Notes under the pieces: model-generated
Database searches by the model: none
Seen by the model: only the letters and a program-made list of their open reading frames with translations
What the model was told of the DNA's origin: nothing
DNA from: Halomonas sp.
GTDB lineage: Bacteria > Pseudomonadota > Gammaproteobacteria > Pseudomonadales > Halomonadaceae
Assembly: GCF_017983445.1 (NCBI RefSeq)
Contig: NZ_JAGOBJ010000010.1
Span: forward strand, 62,001 to 126,000
Direction: 5' to 3'
DNA: 64,000 nt
Made by a program: the position numbers and the translations under genes
Shown: positions 1,283 to 63,091 of the stretch, one piece after another
Layout: each line of letters opens with the position of its first letter
Numbering within the stretch: the first letter of the stretch is position 1

Positions 1283-2398
1283 ATGTTTCACTTCGTCGTT
1301 GCCATACCCTGCCTGATTGTGATCGCCCGCTACCTTGCGCCGCTACGCTGGCCTCTCTGGATCAAGATTTTACTCAGTGCCTTGCTGCTACTCGTTTCAC
1401 AGCACCACCTGCTGACGTATCTGGCTTTCGGCAGCATGTTTTCTCCCGAGGTGCCAAGGAGTATGGTGCTGGCCATTAATTGGCTGTTCGGCACCTTACT
1501 TTTGCTCGCCGTGCTACAGCTAGTCGTTGATCTGGCGACGGCCCTATTGATGGTGATAAAGAGACGTCGGCTCGCGATTCCTGTCTTTTTACGTTACGCC
1601 ATCGGGGTGGTCGCACTGGGAACTGCGGCCTTTGCGGTCAACCAAGCGGCGCGTGTACCGCCCATGAAAGAAGTCGAGGTGGCCATTAACGGGCTTCCCA
1701 CCCAGTTTGACGGGTATCAAATTATCCACTTAACCGACCTGCATATCAGTCGGTTATTCGAGGCGCCCTGGGTTGAAGCAGTGGTCGCCAAAACCAACGC
1801 CTTGGCACCTGACCTGATCGTGATTACCGGCGACCTGATCGACGGGGACCTTGAAGCCCGGCGCGCCGACGTGGCACCGCTTCAATCGCTTTCAGCGCCT
1901 GACGGCGTTTACGCAAGCCCCGGCAATCACGAGTACTACTTTGGTTACGAGCAGTGGATGGCGCATTACCAATCATTAGGGTTGCAGACGCTTGCCAACC
2001 AGCATGCCGTATTGACGCGAGACGGCGCCGATTTAGTGCTTGCTGGCATCACCGATTTACGGGCGCCCCATACCGGCTGGCCCGCACCGGATGTAGACGA
2101 GGCGATCGCTGGCGCCCCGGATAATGCGCCGATTATCCTGCTTGACCACCAGCCGTTTGATGCCGCCAGGGCAGCAGCGGCCGGTGTTGATCTGCAGCTT
2201 TCCGGCCATACCCACGGCGGCATGATTTGGGGATTTGATCGTATTGTGGCCTTGGCCAATAATGGCTTTGTCTCGGGCTTTTATGATGTTGATGGAATGA
2301 CGCTTTACGTCAATAACGGCACCGGGCTGTGGCCTGGGTTTGCACTACGCCTGGGCAAACCTTCAGAGCTCACCCGCATTACGCTGCGCCAGGGTTAA
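1283..2398 (+). CDS. Membrane-anchored metallophosphoesterase
   Basis: A 371-residue protein with three or four hydrophobic segments in the first 120 residues, followed by a cytoplasmic or periplasmic calcineurin-like phosphoesterase domain. The metal-binding motifs are all present: D152-x-H154, GD at 183-184, GNHE at 214-217, H289, and GHTH at 308-311. The layout matches the YkuE/YaeI-type family, some members of which cleave lipid-linked phosphates. The substrate here is unknown. ATG at 1283 is preferred over the TTG at 1280. The 3' end overlaps the convergent recQ-like gene by 20 bases. Confidence 0.85.
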   Translation: MFHFVVAIPCLIVIARYLAPLRWPLWIKILLSALLLLVSQHHLLTYLAFGSMFSPEVPRSMVLAINWLFGTLLLLAVLQLVVDLATALLMVIKRRRLAIPVFLRYAIGVVALGTAAFAVNQAARVPPMKEVEVAINGLPTQFDGYQIIHLTDLHISRLFEAPWVEAVVAKTNALAPDLIVITGDLIDGDLEARRADVAPLQSLSAPDGVYASPGNHEYYFGYEQWMAHYQSLGLQTLANQHAVLTRDGADLVLAGITDLRAPHTGWPAPDVDEAIAGAPDNAPIILLDHQPFDAARAAAAGVDLQLSGHTHGGMIWGFDRIVALANNGFVSGFYDVDGMTLYVNNGTGLWPGFALRLGKPSELTRITLRQG

Positions 2399-33448: not shown

Positions 33449-33961
33449 TCAGCTTCGCTTGAAAGCGTGTAAATCCTGCGAGTCGAAGGTATCAACCCCG
33501 GGTGATAGACCGAGCTCTTCCCGCTTGGCTTTTATGTGACTGGCTTCTGCAAGCCAAGCAGTATCGTGCGAAGGCGACCGTCCATTTAATTCGGCCATCT
33601 GCGTAACACCCTGATGATAAAAGGTTAAAATATTCAGTGCCGCTTTATTGTCATCATTGACCGCGCGCCGGAGCGTAGGTAAATAACCCTTGATTTGCGA
33701 TAGGTGCTGCTTTAATTGCCAGACGTAACGCATCTCGGCCATCCAGGGCCGCTCGCGTAATACCGCAAATAGCGCACTGGTCGCCAGAAGCCCCAAAAAA
33801 ACACCCAGCGCGTATAGCCAGAGGCTGTTGCCGAAGGTGGATGTCAGCAGCATTGAGAACAGCATTCCAAAAATAAGTAGCTGGCCCGCCATTGCAAAAC
33901 TGATCATGCGTGCCTTACGGCGATAGCTGTTTGAATCATGCGGCTCAAGGGTAAAAACCAT
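33449..33961 (-). CDS. DUF3087-like two-helix membrane protein
   Basis: A 170-residue protein with two hydrophobic segments at about residues 22-65 and a helical cytoplasmic tail (YVWQLKQHLSQIKGYLPTLR; then LNILTFYHQG). The pattern resembles DUF3087 proteins of marine gammaproteobacteria; no function is known. ATG 33961 has GAGG seven bases upstream, better than the ATG at 33976. Confidence 0.65.
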   Translation of the reverse strand: MVFTLEPHDSNSYRRKARMISFAMAGQLLIFGMLFSMLLTSTFGNSLWLYALGVFLGLLATSALFAVLRERPWMAEMRYVWQLKQHLSQIKGYLPTLRRAVNDDNKAALNILTFYHQGVTQMAELNGRSPSHDTAWLAEASHIKAKREELGLSPGVDTFDSQDLHAFKRS

Positions 33962-34032
33962 GGCCAACCTCGTCATCTAATGGAACGCTCTATGATACGG
34001 GGCTGACCAAAGCAAACAAGCCTGGGTTACTA

Positions 34033-34211: not shown

Positions 34212-35291
34212 TTAGCTTAACCGTTCTGCGGCCGTTTTTAATAACCGCTCGGTTGCCTCCCAACTGACGCAGGCATCAGTCACCGAAACGCCGTAGCGCA
34301 AGGCGTTCGGCTGCAGGGGCTGCTTGCCTTCAAACAGGTGACTTTCCAGCATGAGGGCGACCAGGTTGGCGTTACCTGCCTGCCGTTGAGCAAGCACATC
34401 CAGCATCACCTCACTTTGGCGGCGGTGGTCTTTACGCGCATTGGCGTGGCTGCAATCGACCATTAACCGCGGATTCTGGCCGGCCTCATGCAGCGTCTTG
34501 ATAGCCGCCTGAACATGCGATGCCTGGTAGTTAGGCTCGCCATGCCCACCGCGAAGCACTACGTGCGTATGCGGGTTACCCGCCGTTTGCTGCATGATGG
34601 GGCGCCCATTGTTGTCTTGAGCAAAGCGCTGGTGGCCGTGGGCCGCTGCCTGCATGGCGTCGATCGCGACCTGTACATCACCGCTGGTCGCGTTTTTAAA
34701 GCCGACCGCCGCGGCTAAGTCGCTGGCAAGCTCACGGTGCAGCTGTGATTCTGTGGTTCGCGCCCCAATCGCCACCCAGCTTAAAAGATCGTCCAGGTAA
34801 GGGGCGAGCATGGGCTGAAGCAGCTCGGTTGCCACCGGCAAACCGCGGGCGGCAACGGCATGCATAAGCTCCCGGGAGAGCATAATGCCCTTGGCCATAT
34901 CACCACTGCCGTCTAAATCCGGATCGTAAGCGAGCCCCTTCCAGCCTACGGTGGTGCGGGGTTTTTCAACGTAGACCCGCATCACGGGTAAAAGCCGTTC
35001 GCTTACCTGTTCGCTGAGCGCGGCGAGACGGTCGGCATACTCAAGGGCTGCGTCAGGATCATGGATGGAACACGGCCCCACTACGACAAGAAGCCGATCA
35101 TCCTGGCCGCTCAAGATGTTTTGAACCGCTTGGCGCTGCTGGGATATCTGCTGGTTTAACCGGGCATCCACCGCCACGCTTTGGCGCAGCTCGGCCGATG
35201 TGGGAAGCAGCTTTTCCGTACTGGGCGTGCTGACAGCCACGGGAGTGATATTACGTTTCGAGCTAAGGGCTGGGCTTGCTGGGGCATTCAT
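34212..35291 (-). CDS. aroF: 3-deoxy-7-phosphoheptulonate synthase, class I
   Basis: A 359-residue DAHP synthase, the first step of the shikimate pathway (PEP + erythrose 4-phosphate). The motif LLVVVGPCSIHDP and the late HANARKDHRRQ region are class I hallmarks. The isozyme type (Tyr-, Phe- or Trp-sensitive) cannot be fixed by eye, and the symbol is provisional. Its ATG overlaps the stop of a tyrosine-rich leader ORF as ATGA, which suggests tyrosine as the regulating amino acid. GGAGAG precedes the ATG. Confidence 0.9.
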   Translation of the reverse strand: MNAPASPALSSKRNITPVAVSTPSTEKLLPTSAELRQSVAVDARLNQQISQQRQAVQNILSGQDDRLLVVVGPCSIHDPDAALEYADRLAALSEQVSERLLPVMRVYVEKPRTTVGWKGLAYDPDLDGSGDMAKGIMLSRELMHAVAARGLPVATELLQPMLAPYLDDLLSWVAIGARTTESQLHRELASDLAAAVGFKNATSGDVQVAIDAMQAAAHGHQRFAQDNNGRPIMQQTAGNPHTHVVLRGGHGEPNYQASHVQAAIKTLHEAGQNPRLMVDCSHANARKDHRRQSEVMLDVLAQRQAGNANLVALMLESHLFEGKQPLQPNALRYGVSVTDACVSWEATERLLKTAAERLS

Positions 35292-35452
35292 AAAGGTCTC
35301 TCCGGGAGCGCATGACATCGATTGACGTTACCACCCAGGCAAGCACGGTCGGAGGTGGCAGCTTGCACCGACCGCGCGTCGCTAAATCGCCAGCCATAGC
35401 CATAGCCCACATAGCCGGTAGCAATAGTGACGTTATATGCGCGATACATCAT
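35288..35452 (-). CDS. Tyrosine-rich leader ORF coupled to the DAHP synthase gene
   Basis: A 54-codon ORF with AAGGAG seven bases before its ATG. Five of the first 19 residues are Tyr (3, 6, 14, 17, 19), followed by Trp 21 and Phe 23. Its TGA overlaps the aroF ATG. Between the Tyr region and aroF the RNA can form competing stems: GGTCGG/CCGACC, GCAAGC/GCTTGC and CCACC/GGTGG. No T-run follows, so control would act by translational coupling or Rho rather than classic attenuation. A role in sensing tyrosyl-tRNA is inference. Confidence 0.6.
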   Translation of the reverse strand: MMYRAYNVTIATGYVGYGYGWRFSDARSVQAATSDRACLGGNVNRCHALPERPL

Positions 35453-35510
35453 GGTGCAGCTCCTTAATGACATTGCTCTATGGCACTTCTATGGTGAAAG
35501 CCTTAAACGC

Positions 35511-35539
35511 AAAAACCCCGGTTGGGTTACCAACCGGGG
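35511..35539 (-). terminator. Terminator between the 41-residue ORF and the aroF leader
   Basis: Perfect 10-bp stem CCCCGGTTGG / CCAACCGGGG with a 4-base loop. Five T follow on the minus strand only. It lies 49 bases after the stop of the 41-codon ORF and 59 bases before the leader start, so it either ends that small transcript or attenuates read-through into aroF. Confidence 0.85.
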
Positions 35540-35587
35540 CTTAAATATTCGGCAGGCAACCTAGTTGGTGTGCCTGGTAGCGCGACG

Positions 35588-35713
35588 TTAACCGTCGGCC
35601 GCGGGCACACCGTGGCTAAACCAATATCCAAAATAGGCAACAACGCTCATGCACACACCAGCCGCCACAAGGGGCAAGCTACTAGCAGTGTGAGAAGGCG
35701 CGTATGTGTGCAT
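35588..35713 (-). CDS. Small 41-residue membrane-type ORF before the aroF leader
   Basis: AGGA lies five to six bases before the ATG. The product has one hydrophobic segment (about 13-32) ending in a cluster of aromatic residues, Tyr 27, Phe 28, Tyr 30, Trp 31 and Phe 32. It is followed by a strong terminator and then the aroF leader ORF. It could be a small inner-membrane protein, or a leader peptide for terminator-based attenuation. I do not recognise the sequence. Confidence 0.4.
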   Translation of the reverse strand: MHTYAPSHTASSLPLVAAGVCMSVVAYFGYWFSHGVPAADG

Positions 35714-35901
35714 ATTTATCCTGATCATTGGCAAACCCGTAGGCTCTGCGAAAGGTAATTCTGTAAACCGCTGGCGTTTCTGAAAAGCTAGGCTTTTGAA
35801 AGTCTGTGGCTTTATCCTGCCCTTACATTTGGCAAATGGCAACTGTTCTTCACAAAACAATGCTGTTGGCTAACGCGGGCAGGCTTTTAACCTTGTATCA
35901 A

Positions 35902-36639
35902 TCAAGGGCGCGGGGCGTAAGCAAACACATCTGAAAAAACACGCTCGCGGATCACACCCTTGGCTTCCAGAATGTCCAGACAGGCGTACACCATGCCGGG
36001 CGAGCCCGAGAGATAAATATCATAATCGCTAAACGTGAGCGCCGCTTTTTCCAGGACCAGATCTATTCGGCCCTGGTGATGATGAATTCGCTCGCTGCTT
36101 GCCAGAGGCTCGGTTAGCGGGAATTCAGTCACTGCCTGAAAGGTGACCTGGGGGTAACGCTGTGCCCAAGCAGACGCCAGGCTTTCCGCATAAAGATCGC
36201 GGTGTTCGCGGGCAGCCCACCAAAGGGAAATCGGCCGCTCGGGCTGATCACGCAGCGTGGCTTCAACAATAGCTTTCATCTGCGCAAACCCAGTGCCTGC
36301 AGCAATCAGCATCAGCGGGCGCTGGCTTTGCGGGTCAACCACACATTCACCGCCCGGCAAGCGTAGGGTCAGTTGGTTGGCCACTTGCAGAAGATTGCGC
36401 AACCGCACCGAGTTATCGCGCTCGGGCCAGTGCTGAATATGCAGCTCAATGACGCCATCACCCTGCTCGGCACTGGCAATCGAAAACGGCACCCATGTTG
36501 TATCATCCAGCTGTAGCTCTAAATACTGGCCGGGAGCATGCTGCATTGCTTCTGCTCGGCCTTCCAGCGTTACGCCAAATACGTCAGGATTTAAATCCTC
36601 AACGGCCGTTACCTGGCAGGTTAACGTCCTTGCGCTCAT
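35902..36639 (-). CDS. fre: NAD(P)H-flavin reductase
   Basis: A 245-residue ferredoxin-reductase-fold protein without an iron-sulfur domain. The flavin-binding PFSIAS motif is near residue 51 and the nucleotide-binding GTGFAQMKAIVEA motif follows near 114. Fre reduces free flavins with NAD(P)H. It lies directly downstream of ubiD; UbiD decarboxylases need prenylated FMN made from reduced FMN, so the pairing makes sense and is common in gammaproteobacteria. AGAGG precedes the ATG. Confidence 0.88.
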   Translation of the reverse strand: MSARTLTCQVTAVEDLNPDVFGVTLEGRAEAMQHAPGQYLELQLDDTTWVPFSIASAEQGDGVIELHIQHWPERDNSVRLRNLLQVANQLTLRLPGGECVVDPQSQRPLMLIAAGTGFAQMKAIVEATLRDQPERPISLWWAAREHRDLYAESLASAWAQRYPQVTFQAVTEFPLTEPLASSERIHHHQGRIDLVLEKAALTFSDYDIYLSGSPGMVYACLDILEAKGVIRERVFSDVFAYAPRP

Positions 36640-36694
36640 GAAAACCTCTTTGTAAAAAATCGATCAGTGTGCGCCGTTAAACTTCACCGCCGTA

Positions 36695-38191
36695 TTAACC
36701 GCCATGGCGTGGAGCAGGTAGAGGGATACCGATCCCCAACTCTTCCCACCGCTCGTCAACGCGGTTTTTGACCGTTTCGTCCATCACGATGGGCGTACCC
36801 CACTCGCGGTCCGTTTCGCCCGGCCATTTATTGGTCGCGTCCAGGCCCATCTTGGAACCCAGGCCTGACACAGGCGAGGCGAAATCCAGATAATCGATGG
36901 GCGTGTTTTCCACCATCACAGTATCGCGTGCCGGGTCCATGCGTGTCGTGATCGCCCAAATCACGTCTTCCCAGTTGCGCGCATCGACATCGTCATCCAG
37001 CACGATCACGAACTTGGTATACATGAATTGACGCAAGAAGCTCCAGACGCCCATCATCACGCGCTTGGCGTGGCCGGGGTACTGCTTTTTCATGGTGACG
37101 ACCGCCATCCGGTACGAGCACCCTTCCGGCGGCAGATAGAAGTCGACGATTTCAGGAAACTGCTTGCAGAGTATCGGCACAAACACTTCGTTGAGCGCTA
37201 ACCCTAGAACGGCGGGCTCATCCGGCGGCCGCCCGGTATAGGTCGAGTGATAGATGGCATCGCGACGCATGGTCATGCGCGTGACGGTAAAGACCGGGAA
37301 GTGATCCACCTCGTTGTAATAACCGGTGTGATCACCGTATGGGCCTTCCGGCGCCATATCATCGGGGTAGATAACCCCTTCCAGAATGATTTCGCTTGAG
37401 GCGGGCACCTCAAGGTCTGAATGACCACATTTAACCAGTTCAGTACGTGAGCCACGCAGAAGCCCGGCAAACGCATATTCGGAGAGTGAGTCAGGGACGG
37501 GGGTAACGGCCGCCAGGATCGTGGCCGGGTCGGCCCCCAGCGCCACGGCAACCGGGAAAGGCTCGCCAGGATGCGTTTGCTGAAACTCCTGAAAATCCAG
37601 CGCCCCACCACGGTGTGAGAGCCAGCGCATGATCAGGCGGTTCTTGCCGATCTTTTGCTGCCGATAAATCCCCAAATTCTGACGCTTTTTATGCGGGCCT
37701 CGGGTAATGACCAGTGGCCATGTCACCAAAGGCGCCGCATCGCCCGGCCAGCAGTGCTGGATAGGGAGGCGATCCAGATCAACCTCGTCACCTTCAAAAA
37801 CGACTTCCTGCACCGGAGCCCGCTTAACGGTTTTAGGCCCCATGCTGAGCACCTGCTTGAAAATGGGCAGCTTGTCCCAGGCGTCTTTCAACCCTTTGGG
37901 CGGATCCGGCTCTTTCAGAAAGGCCAGCAGCTTGCCCACTTCGCGCAGCGCTTCGACCGACTCCTGTCCCATCCCCAGCGCCACACGTTTTGGCGTACCG
38001 AAAAGATTGCCCAAAAGCGGCATCTCGTGACCCTTCACGTTCTCGAACAGAAGTGCCGGGCCACCGGCACGCAGGGTGCGGTCGCAAATTTCGGTGATTT
38101 CCAGGTAAGGATCGACCTCGGCTTGGATACGCTTGAGTTCACCGCGCGCTTCCAGCGCCGCGATGAAGTCGCGCAAGTCGTTATACTTCAA
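36695..38191 (-). CDS. ubiD: 4-hydroxy-3-polyprenylbenzoate decarboxylase
   Basis: A 498-residue UbiD that decarboxylates the ring precursor in ubiquinone synthesis using prenylated FMN. Family motifs are seen: [12 protein letters not shown] near 43-54, the [13 protein letters not shown] stretch with catalytic glutamate near 280-295, and [15 protein letters not shown]. Length matches E. coli UbiD (497). rho lies upstream and fre downstream on the same strand. ubiX is not in the window. Confidence 0.94.
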
Positions 38192-62681: not shown

Positions 62682-63091
62682 GGTAAAACTCCTGAAACTC
62701 GGGTTAGGCCTCCACGCACCCCATGGATCCGACCATTGACCACGTTAAAACGTTGCCAGCGGCACCCGGGACCATGTGTCGGTGCATGTGTGTTTTCAAG
62801 GCTTGCTATATTAGTCGCGCATCCAAAATGAACGCGCAACGGGTCGTTCGACTGACCATGATCGCCTACCAGCGGAAAAGAAGCCAGGAATGACGATTGC
62901 AGGAAAGCGCGCGGCTTTATACCATAGATCATTGCCAAGATGAAGTCGCAGCTCGTGTTACGATCTTTATTTATTGCTCAATACGGTTACTTAGTACGCT
63001 TAATTAATATGGTCTCTCAACACTGTTCCCCAACCACTGTTTCTTAATACTGTATTCTTAATACCACCGCCTGAACCCATATCGAGAATTC
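62682..63091. promoter_or_regulatory. 410-base divergent spacer between rpsB and map
   Basis: No gene is visible. The left half probably holds the rpsB leader; S2 represses its own mRNA in E. coli through such a leader. AT-rich sequence around 62806-62815 on the minus strand may contain the rpsB -10. The right half contains a 14-base degenerate repeat before map. No promoter could be placed with confidence. Confidence 0.4.
63018..63068. repeat. About 14-bp degenerate tandem repeat upstream of map
   Basis: ACTGTT at 63022, ACTGTT at 63036, ACTGTA at 63049 and a diverged unit at 63063 mark three and a half units with 13-14 base spacing. TTCTTAATAC appears twice in register. The array ends about 24 bases before the map ATG. 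Confidence 0.6.

Follow-up and report, generated by a model that had tools for sequence, protein, structure and literature searches.

How aroF, which is controlled through TyrR in E. coli, is regulated in Halomonas is the question raised by a Tyr-rich reading frame that lies directly upstream of the gene in the window analyzed (a 64,000-nt stretch of a Halomonas sp. genome). A preliminary description had read the frame as a leader of the gene. It is indeed a Tyr leader, but the second of two (hereafter LP2): a first one, LP1, with a classical terminator, lies further upstream. We think it rather probable that aroF has a two-stage, ribosome-mediated leader for aromatic amino acids, in which LP1 would act on transcription, and LP2, sensing Tyr, Trp and Phe, on translation. 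Such a two-stage RNA sensor, suggested here for the entry of the shikimate pathway in relatives of Pseudomonas and Halomonas, differs from the TyrR control of E. coli aroF, a point made in the preliminary description that holds.

The features of the locus are collected in Table 1. aroF, with its ATG at 35291, is 96% identical to the gene of Halomonas colorata, and the genome of the window is near that species. Downstream of aroF a gene for a DUF3087 protein is found (33449..33976, minus strand; PF11286, E 8.2e-29), and a match to the Rfam t44 RNA, above gathering score with 70.1 bits, at 62703..62810 (minus strand).

A DAHP synthase match was found in all the 151 genomes of a family sample. 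The regions upstream of aroF were examined in 110 of these genomes (30 loci and 80 regions), in 25 named halomonad loci, some of which belong to the same strains as sampled genomes, and in 55 Pseudomonas-type loci, including Stutzerimonas, Halopseudomonas and two gammaproteobacterial MAGs. A paralogue (L002), a spurious LP2 (L187) and a spurious LP1 (L182) were left out of the counts. LP2 was searched by a regular expression demanding Trp, then a codon of fixed form for Arg or Ser, then Phe, so that forms with other cores would escape; LP1 was also located by a regular expression, and the start codons of LP2 and aroF were picked by a simple Shine-Dalgarno (SD) score. Upon merging of identical LP2 sequences, 163 loci gave 153 distinct LP2s (98 halomonad, 55 Pseudomonas type).

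Table 1. Features of the aroF leader region (window coordinates)
Feature	Position	Strand	Remarks
LP1, first leader peptide, MHTYAPSHTASSLPLVAAGVCMSVVAYFGYWFSHGVPAADG and stop	35588..35713	-	control codons Y F G Y W F; SD AGGA just upstream
Rfam RF00627 (P15) match	35515..35642	-	35.1 bits, E 2.1e-5; below gathering score 70
Attenuator segment 1, GGTGTGCC	35604..35611	-	within last LP1 codons; pairs with segment 2, covariation
Attenuator segment 2, GGCACACC	35567..35574	-	pairs with segment 1 or segment 3
Attenuator segment 3, GGTTGCCTG	35553..35561	-	pairs with segment 2 or segment 4
Attenuator segment 4, GGTAACC	35525..35531	-	terminator hairpin top; pairs with segment 3, covariation
Intrinsic terminator with U-run	35513..35542	-	terminator scan and covariation
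LP2, Tyr-rich second leader peptide	35288..35452	-	stop overlaps aroF start (ATGA)
LP2 near-invariant motif TGG CGA TTT AGC (Trp-Arg-Phe-Ser)	35381..35392	-	TGGCGATTT in 152/153 distinct LP2s
Pseudoknot S1, 5' strand CGGTCGG	35368..35374	-	pairs with 35352..35346
Pseudoknot S2, 5' strand GCCACC	35354..35359	-	pairs with 35335..35330
Pseudoknot S1, 3' strand CCGACCG	35346..35352	-	covariation, 78-sequence alignment
Pseudoknot S2, 3' strand GGTGGT	35330..35335	-	covariation, 78-sequence alignment
Second conserved in-frame CGA codon of LP2	35318..35320	-	153/153 distinct LP2s, after Trp-Arg-Phe
aroF Shine-Dalgarno CGGAGAG	35298..35304	-	within 3' end of LP2
aroF, type I DAHP synthase	34212..35291	-	NF009395, E 2.4e-149; PF00793, E 6.7e-80

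The Tyr-rich frame LP2 and its distribution

LP2 starts at the ATG at 35452 (a second ATG is at 35449), behind the SD sequence AAGGAG (35465..35460), and ends at the TGA at 35290..35288. The peptide, MMYRAYNVTIATGYVGYGYGWRFSDARSVQAATSDRACLGGNVNRCHALPERPL, is of 54 residues, with Tyr at 3, 6, 14, 17 and 19, Trp at 21 and Phe at 23. The good SD, the order of the aromatic codons, the length and the ATGA overlap had all been described correctly for the window; the strand is the minus one.

The preliminary description had proposed conservation of the frame across Halomonadaceae as a check, and this is borne out. LP2 is present in 87/110 Halomonadaceae genomes, in 21 of the 25 named halomonad loci and in all the 55 Pseudomonas-type loci. 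It is missing from 12/12 g4, 4/14 g19 and 2/2 g8 genomes, from single genomes of g3, g13, g15, g17 and g20, and from four named Salinicola loci. All the 12 g4 genomes retain LP1, and LP2 is therefore dispensable.

The region of LP2 before Trp varies in length and residues, and Tyr is retained. In the 12-codon stretch ahead of Trp, 271 of 1176 in-frame codons are Tyr in halomonads (23%; 12 and 29 in the other frames), and 211 of 660 in the Pseudomonas type (32%; 0 and 10 in the other frames). The off-frame share in this stretch, 0–2.5%, argues for selection on the Tyr codons, as had been proposed. At least one Tyr occurs between start and Trp in 153/153 distinct LP2s, at least two in 149. An SD with at least four matching bases precedes the chosen start in 153/153, the SD having partly guided the choice.

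That the frame may encode a small protein had also been considered. An ordinary small protein is unlikely, because LP2 has no NCBIfam match at E 0.001 and no Pfam match at E 1, its ends are variable, and its conserved core coincides with RNA helices. In one g20 genome (L030, G139) the LP2 core has Gly in place of Trp before Arg-Phe and the end of LP1 is altered, as if both leaders were degenerating.

The LP1 attenuator and the Rfam P15 family

LP1 is found in 106/110 halomonad genomes, and in all the 25 named halomonad and 55 Pseudomonas-type loci. LP1 of the window ends with YFGYWFSHGVPAADG, and its relatives in a Tyr-Trp-Phe core. The last control codon is TTT in 185/186 loci, followed by A in 184/186; in 184/186 loci a terminator-like hairpin with a T-rich tail follows LP1. 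The preliminary description had the leader act without a U-run terminator. This is right for the sequence after LP2, as both minus-strand sites detected by a terminator scan of 34500..37000 fall in 35542..35513, before LP2; the strong terminator at this place, 60 nt upstream of LP2, had been overlooked.

Covariation in LP1 was measured in 64 halomonad sequences thinned at 80% identity, against 500 shuffles. Helix 1:2 is paired in 96.8% of cells (both-side changes 55 vs. 15.7 in shuffles), helix 2:3 in 91.2% (21 vs. 8.3), helix 3:4 in 93.5% (22 vs. 5.9), and the terminator in 89.5% (39 vs. 8.9). For all four, the cells paired or changed on both sides and the covariation score were matched by 0/500 shuffles; counted by pairs with both-side change, helices 1:2 (12/500) and 2:3 (142/500) do not stand out clearly from shuffles. 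An earlier hand-picked set of 42 of the 64 sequences (22 dropped, mostly g20 with longer spacers) gave the same picture.

LP1 accordingly has what is found in attenuators: a short reading frame whose codons specify the end products, and mutually exclusive helices, one of which is an intrinsic terminator. That LP1 is a classical transcription attenuator is well supported; from the structure, obtained by comparison, we infer that it would act by termination. In the window, segment 1 starts 12 nt after the first base of TGG, so that a ribosome stalled at Trp or at an earlier Tyr would leave it free, and a ribosome at the LP1 stop would cover it. Upon stalling at the Tyr or Trp codons, the free segment 1 would form helix 1:2, and segment 3 would pair with segment 4 in the terminator top, allowing RNA polymerase to read through. 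With charged tRNAs, the ribosome at the LP1 stop would cover segment 1, helix 2:3 would form, and the terminator fold.

Classical ribosome-mediated transcription attenuators are the trp, his and phe leaders. LP1 resembles these in the short ORF of control codons, the alternative helices and the intrinsic terminator before a biosynthetic gene. LP1 differs from them in the mixed Tyr, Trp and Phe codons, and in that the antiterminator 3:4 pairs with the terminator top, so that segment 1 has to stay free upon stalling for 1:2 and then 3:4 to form. LP2 differs from all of them in having no terminator. A comparative study of attenuators in proteobacteria, reportedly made by Vitreschak and colleagues in 2004, may bear on LP1.

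The end of LP1 and its terminator correspond to a known Rfam family, RF00627 (Pseudomonas sRNA P15). All three Pseudomonas-type loci scored exceed the cut-off of 70 bits (L054, 135.7 bits, 1627..1744; L070, 98.5 bits, 1558..1679; L095, 112.3 bits, 1660..1779), the matches spanning the LP1 core to the terminator, upstream of aroF. None of the three halomonad loci scored (L007, L042 and L167) reaches it, and the window match is also below it. P15 is thus the LP1 attenuator upstream of aroF in Pseudomonas-type loci. Rfam treats RF00627 as an sRNA gene. In the present loci the element shares sequence with a leader ORF, and all 55 Pseudomonas-type loci have LP1 ahead of aroF (RF00627 being scored in three). 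In the accessible text of PMC2375449, P15 is named only as found in an sRNA screen, and no paper calling it an attenuator was found in the open-access literature. An Rfam sRNA is re-explained in this way as a terminated mRNA leader.

Codon motifs and a pseudoknot within LP2

The LP2 core TGG CGA TTT (UGG-CGA-UUU) is found in 152/153 distinct LP2s, the exception, L109, having CGC; the base after TTT is A in 153/153. UUU followed by A is the last control codon of both leaders in all the clades examined. In Pseudomonas-type loci aroF prefers TTC over TTT, 249 to 11, despite the UUU in the leaders.

Among window ORFs of at least 200 codons, CGA has a frequency of 3.0 per 1000 codons. The last in-frame CGA of LP2 is followed by TGT, AGT or CGT in 79/98 halomonad LP2s, and by ACA in 42/55 of the Pseudomonas type. 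As a control, CGA out of frame after Trp-Arg-Phe was counted: it occurs in 71/98 halomonad and 40/55 Pseudomonas-type LP2s in one frame, in 46/98 and 7/55 in the third. Off-frame CGA is common partly because the pseudoknot described below contains CGA, and codon rarity therefore overstates the surprise of the second CGA. The conserved CGAs may act as slow codons, as an RNA motif, or as both. Programmed frameshifting at CGA-UUU-A was considered, since the pseudoknot lies 6–9 nt downstream, and set aside, because there is no slippery heptamer, and the base after UUUA varies, so that a stop in the -1 frame is not kept. Pairing with a tRNA and RNase E sites were considered as ideas.

The preliminary description had noted competing stems downstream of the Tyr codons. 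Two of these, S1 and S2, covary and are interleaved, forming an H-type pseudoknot that begins 12 nt past the first base of UUU; a third stem, GCAAGC:GCTTGC, is not kept even in a near relative (L005). The pseudoknot consensus is CGGUCGG, 8 nt, GCCACC, U, CCGACCG, 10 nt, GGUGGC, a spacing shared by 123/153 LP2s (87 halomonad, 36 Pseudomonas type). For the alignment analyzed, 101 distinct sequences with this standard spacing were thinned to 78, and S1 was extended to 10 pairs. Outside it are 19 short Pseudomonas-type forms, from which the pseudoknot is missing, 10 halomonad LP2s spaced differently, another that carries an insertion, and L052, L184, L185, L188 and L190.

In the alignment 91.9% of 1248 cells are paired. 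Changes on both sides occur in 63 cells vs. 30.7 in shuffles, and the covariation score is 0.186 vs. 0.126, both values being reached by 0/500 shuffles; overall the structure exceeds 500/500 shuffles on four of five measures, and 498 on the fifth, a result to be read with the caveat that kinship among sequences can beat shuffles even without structure. Slid registers (cells paired) and replaced helices provide the better argument. Slid registers pair 26–47% of cells, a slide of +3 giving 8 pairs with both-side change vs. 7 for the pseudoknot. In L184, L185 and L188 (g15, outside the alignment and of different sequence), S1 forms 7/7 pairs, and S2 forms 6/6 in a shifted register. Covariation is carried by S1 (6/10 pairs), the two outermost added pairs of which are unpaired in 48/78 and 26/78 sequences; S2 shows both-side change in one pair, and otherwise G-U exchanges. 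Part of the conservation of the helices may be due to the peptide, because they overlap conserved codons. When consensus structures were folded separately for g1, g20 and the Pseudomonas long form, no element beyond S1 was common to all three.

The near-invariant UGGCGAUUUA and the second CGA flank the pseudoknot, an arrangement compatible with a folded RNA to which a protein or small molecule binds directly, the CGA motifs and the pseudoknot being the site and the ORF merely passing through. We regard this as very improbable, as the reading frame and the Tyr codons are conserved, and the short Pseudomonas-type LP2s retain the motifs without the pseudoknot.

Spacing to aroF, putative output of LP2 and related systems

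The ATGA overlap, whose retention among relatives had been proposed as a check, is not a general feature: it is found in 13/98 halomonad and 0/55 Pseudomonas-type LP2s. The distance from the LP2 stop to the aroF start ranges from -17 to +8 nt in 72/98 halomonad LP2s and from 11 to 45 nt in the remaining 26; in the Pseudomonas type it is 37 to 50 nt in 55/55. Within clades, the stop lies consistently close to the aroF start. A hairpin is predicted between the LP2 stop and the aroF SD, with a mean z of -2.4 in the Pseudomonas type (28 thinned sequences), and -1.3 in long-gap halomonads (16).

The distances bear on the possibility that LP1 alone senses amino acids, and that LP2 is a translated spacer, in which ribosomes keep the LP2-aroF RNA open, with stop-start coupling and Tyr codons inherited from a duplicated leader. 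The overlap or gap of at most 8 nt in 72/98 halomonad LP2s is what coupling predicts, the core W-(CGA)-UUU-A is common to LP1 and LP2, and g4 genomes manage without LP2. Yet 23–32% in-frame Tyr, present in 153/153 LP2s, is unexpected for a spacer, gaps of 37–50 nt and the predicted stable hairpin in Pseudomonas-type LP2s speak against simple coupling, and the pseudoknot is left without a role; we consider this account unlikely.

More doubtful still is that LP2 controls transcription, with Rho terminating between LP2 and aroF if the ribosome on LP2 is so placed that Rho can load. The terminator scan detected no U-run terminator downstream of LP2, Pseudomonas-type LP2s seem by eye C-rich and G-poor in their 5' half, and orf34-speF, in the part of PMC6386406 consulted, is a precedent for Rho control via a leader ORF; however, the pseudoknot and the stop held by the aroF start have no evident role in such a scheme.

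We favor translational control of aroF, because the layout of LP2 resembles the plan of orf34-speF: LP2 probably acts on aroF translation by ribosome position. In this second stage, LP2 on read-through RNA would gauge chiefly Tyr-tRNA, then Trp and Phe. If the ribosome stalls at a Tyr or Trp codon, or its A site contains UUU, the downstream pseudoknot would stay folded; an unstalled ribosome would unfold it and halt at or before the aroF ribosome-binding site. A stall may thus keep the aroF initiation region ready, and full translation of LP2 occupy or remodel it, a direction that we infer from pathway logic. Only tentatively do we put forward the fuller version: a tandem aromatic sensor of Halomonadaceae and Pseudomonas relatives, with LP1 as transcription attenuator, followed by a terminator-less LP2 that would gate the pseudoknot in its own ORF and aroF translation, the CGA codons flanking the knot serving as pauses.

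A consistent switch of the aroF site was not shown by folding models, the effects being weak or contrary, and clade-specific. In 43 short-gap halomonads, formation of the pseudoknot raises the predicted accessibility of the aroF SD only from 0.32 to 0.38 (26 up, 11 down), and elsewhere there is no rise. Stall vs. stop-codon occupancy gives 0.45 vs. 0.42 in the Pseudomonas type, and 0.43 vs. 0.56 in long-gap halomonads, contrary to the model. Long-range pairing of the LP2 control codons with the aroF start was tried as well, and rejected, aroF starts without LP2 pairing equally well (background of 21 window genes). Pairing of the Trp-Arg-Phe codons with the cognate start beats non-cognate combinations in the whole Pseudomonas type (5/2000 permutations, relatedness not removed), fades in its short (92/2000) and long forms (385/2000), and fails in halomonads (1575/2000).

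Among known systems, the nearest to LP2 in design is the LEU element of actinobacterial leuA, in which, according to the sections of PMC1262725 seen, a biosynthetic gene is likewise preceded by a leader peptide of cognate codons together with a conserved pseudoknot. The likeness is of plan only, as phylum, gene and sequence are different; the run of Leu codons in the LEU element pairs with the leuA SD (PMC1262725, same sections), whereas in LP2 control codon:aroF start pairing is not general, being unsupported in halomonads and weak in the Pseudomonas type. In Salmonella orf34-speF, ribosome stalling permits a hairpin beyond the stop codon to fold, and expression follows; the proposed likeness to LP2 is that ribosome position in a leader ORF would decide on a post-stop hairpin and on expression (PMC6386406, in part). 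orf34-speF differs in sensing arginine and in the demonstrated roles of Rho and RNase G, and the portion of PMC6386406 consulted does not use the word pseudoknot. uORFC-13-1 of Acholeplasma, according to the passages of PMC8632094 consulted, is a predicted aromatic leader ORF before aroF by an apparent terminator, like the LP leaders, and differs from them in that it concerns phenylalanine and unrelated organisms. Attenuation of aroF by Tyr-tRNA had been proposed earlier in E. coli (Camakaris 1980, as cited in the parts of PMC2659441 and PMC8632094 consulted).

Nothing describing the LP1/LP2 leader was found in open-access papers, and within this literature it seems new that two such leaders stand in tandem, that a Tyr leader encloses a pseudoknot, and that P15 is the LP1 attenuator. 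If LP2 works as proposed, it would be a rare case of translational attenuation for amino-acid biosynthesis via a pseudoknot within the leader ORF, and a possible handle for the production of aromatic compounds in Pseudomonas and Halomonas hosts.

The range of the leaders was monitored beyond the two groups. The LP2 core model, with strict filters, matches at E 0.01 in 9/244 genomes of the order, all of family f1 or f21; a pattern search across the order matched 206/244 genomes and was uninformative. In the genome of the window, the model search for further LP2 copies gave only weak matches (E 0.117 and 0.686), in which in-frame Tyr is absent. P15 was detected at E 0.001 in 5/274 genomes of the class, one over cut-off, two of the five outside the order. 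In one of the matches outside the order the end resembles that of LP1 (MYFYGYWFSRYGV), and the 3.1 kb retrieved contain no LP2 motif; LP1-type leaders therefore seem wider-ranging than LP2. A survey of 20 upstream regions, most of them from other families of the order, showed aromatic-rich ORFs but no LP2 motif TGGCGNTT[T/C]A. ORFs with a single aromatic run (e.g. ..WWFGYGFYFSQ..), without the LP2 motif, precede DAHP synthase genes at L209 and L210 (f20), L213 (f38), and L224 and L227 (f7).
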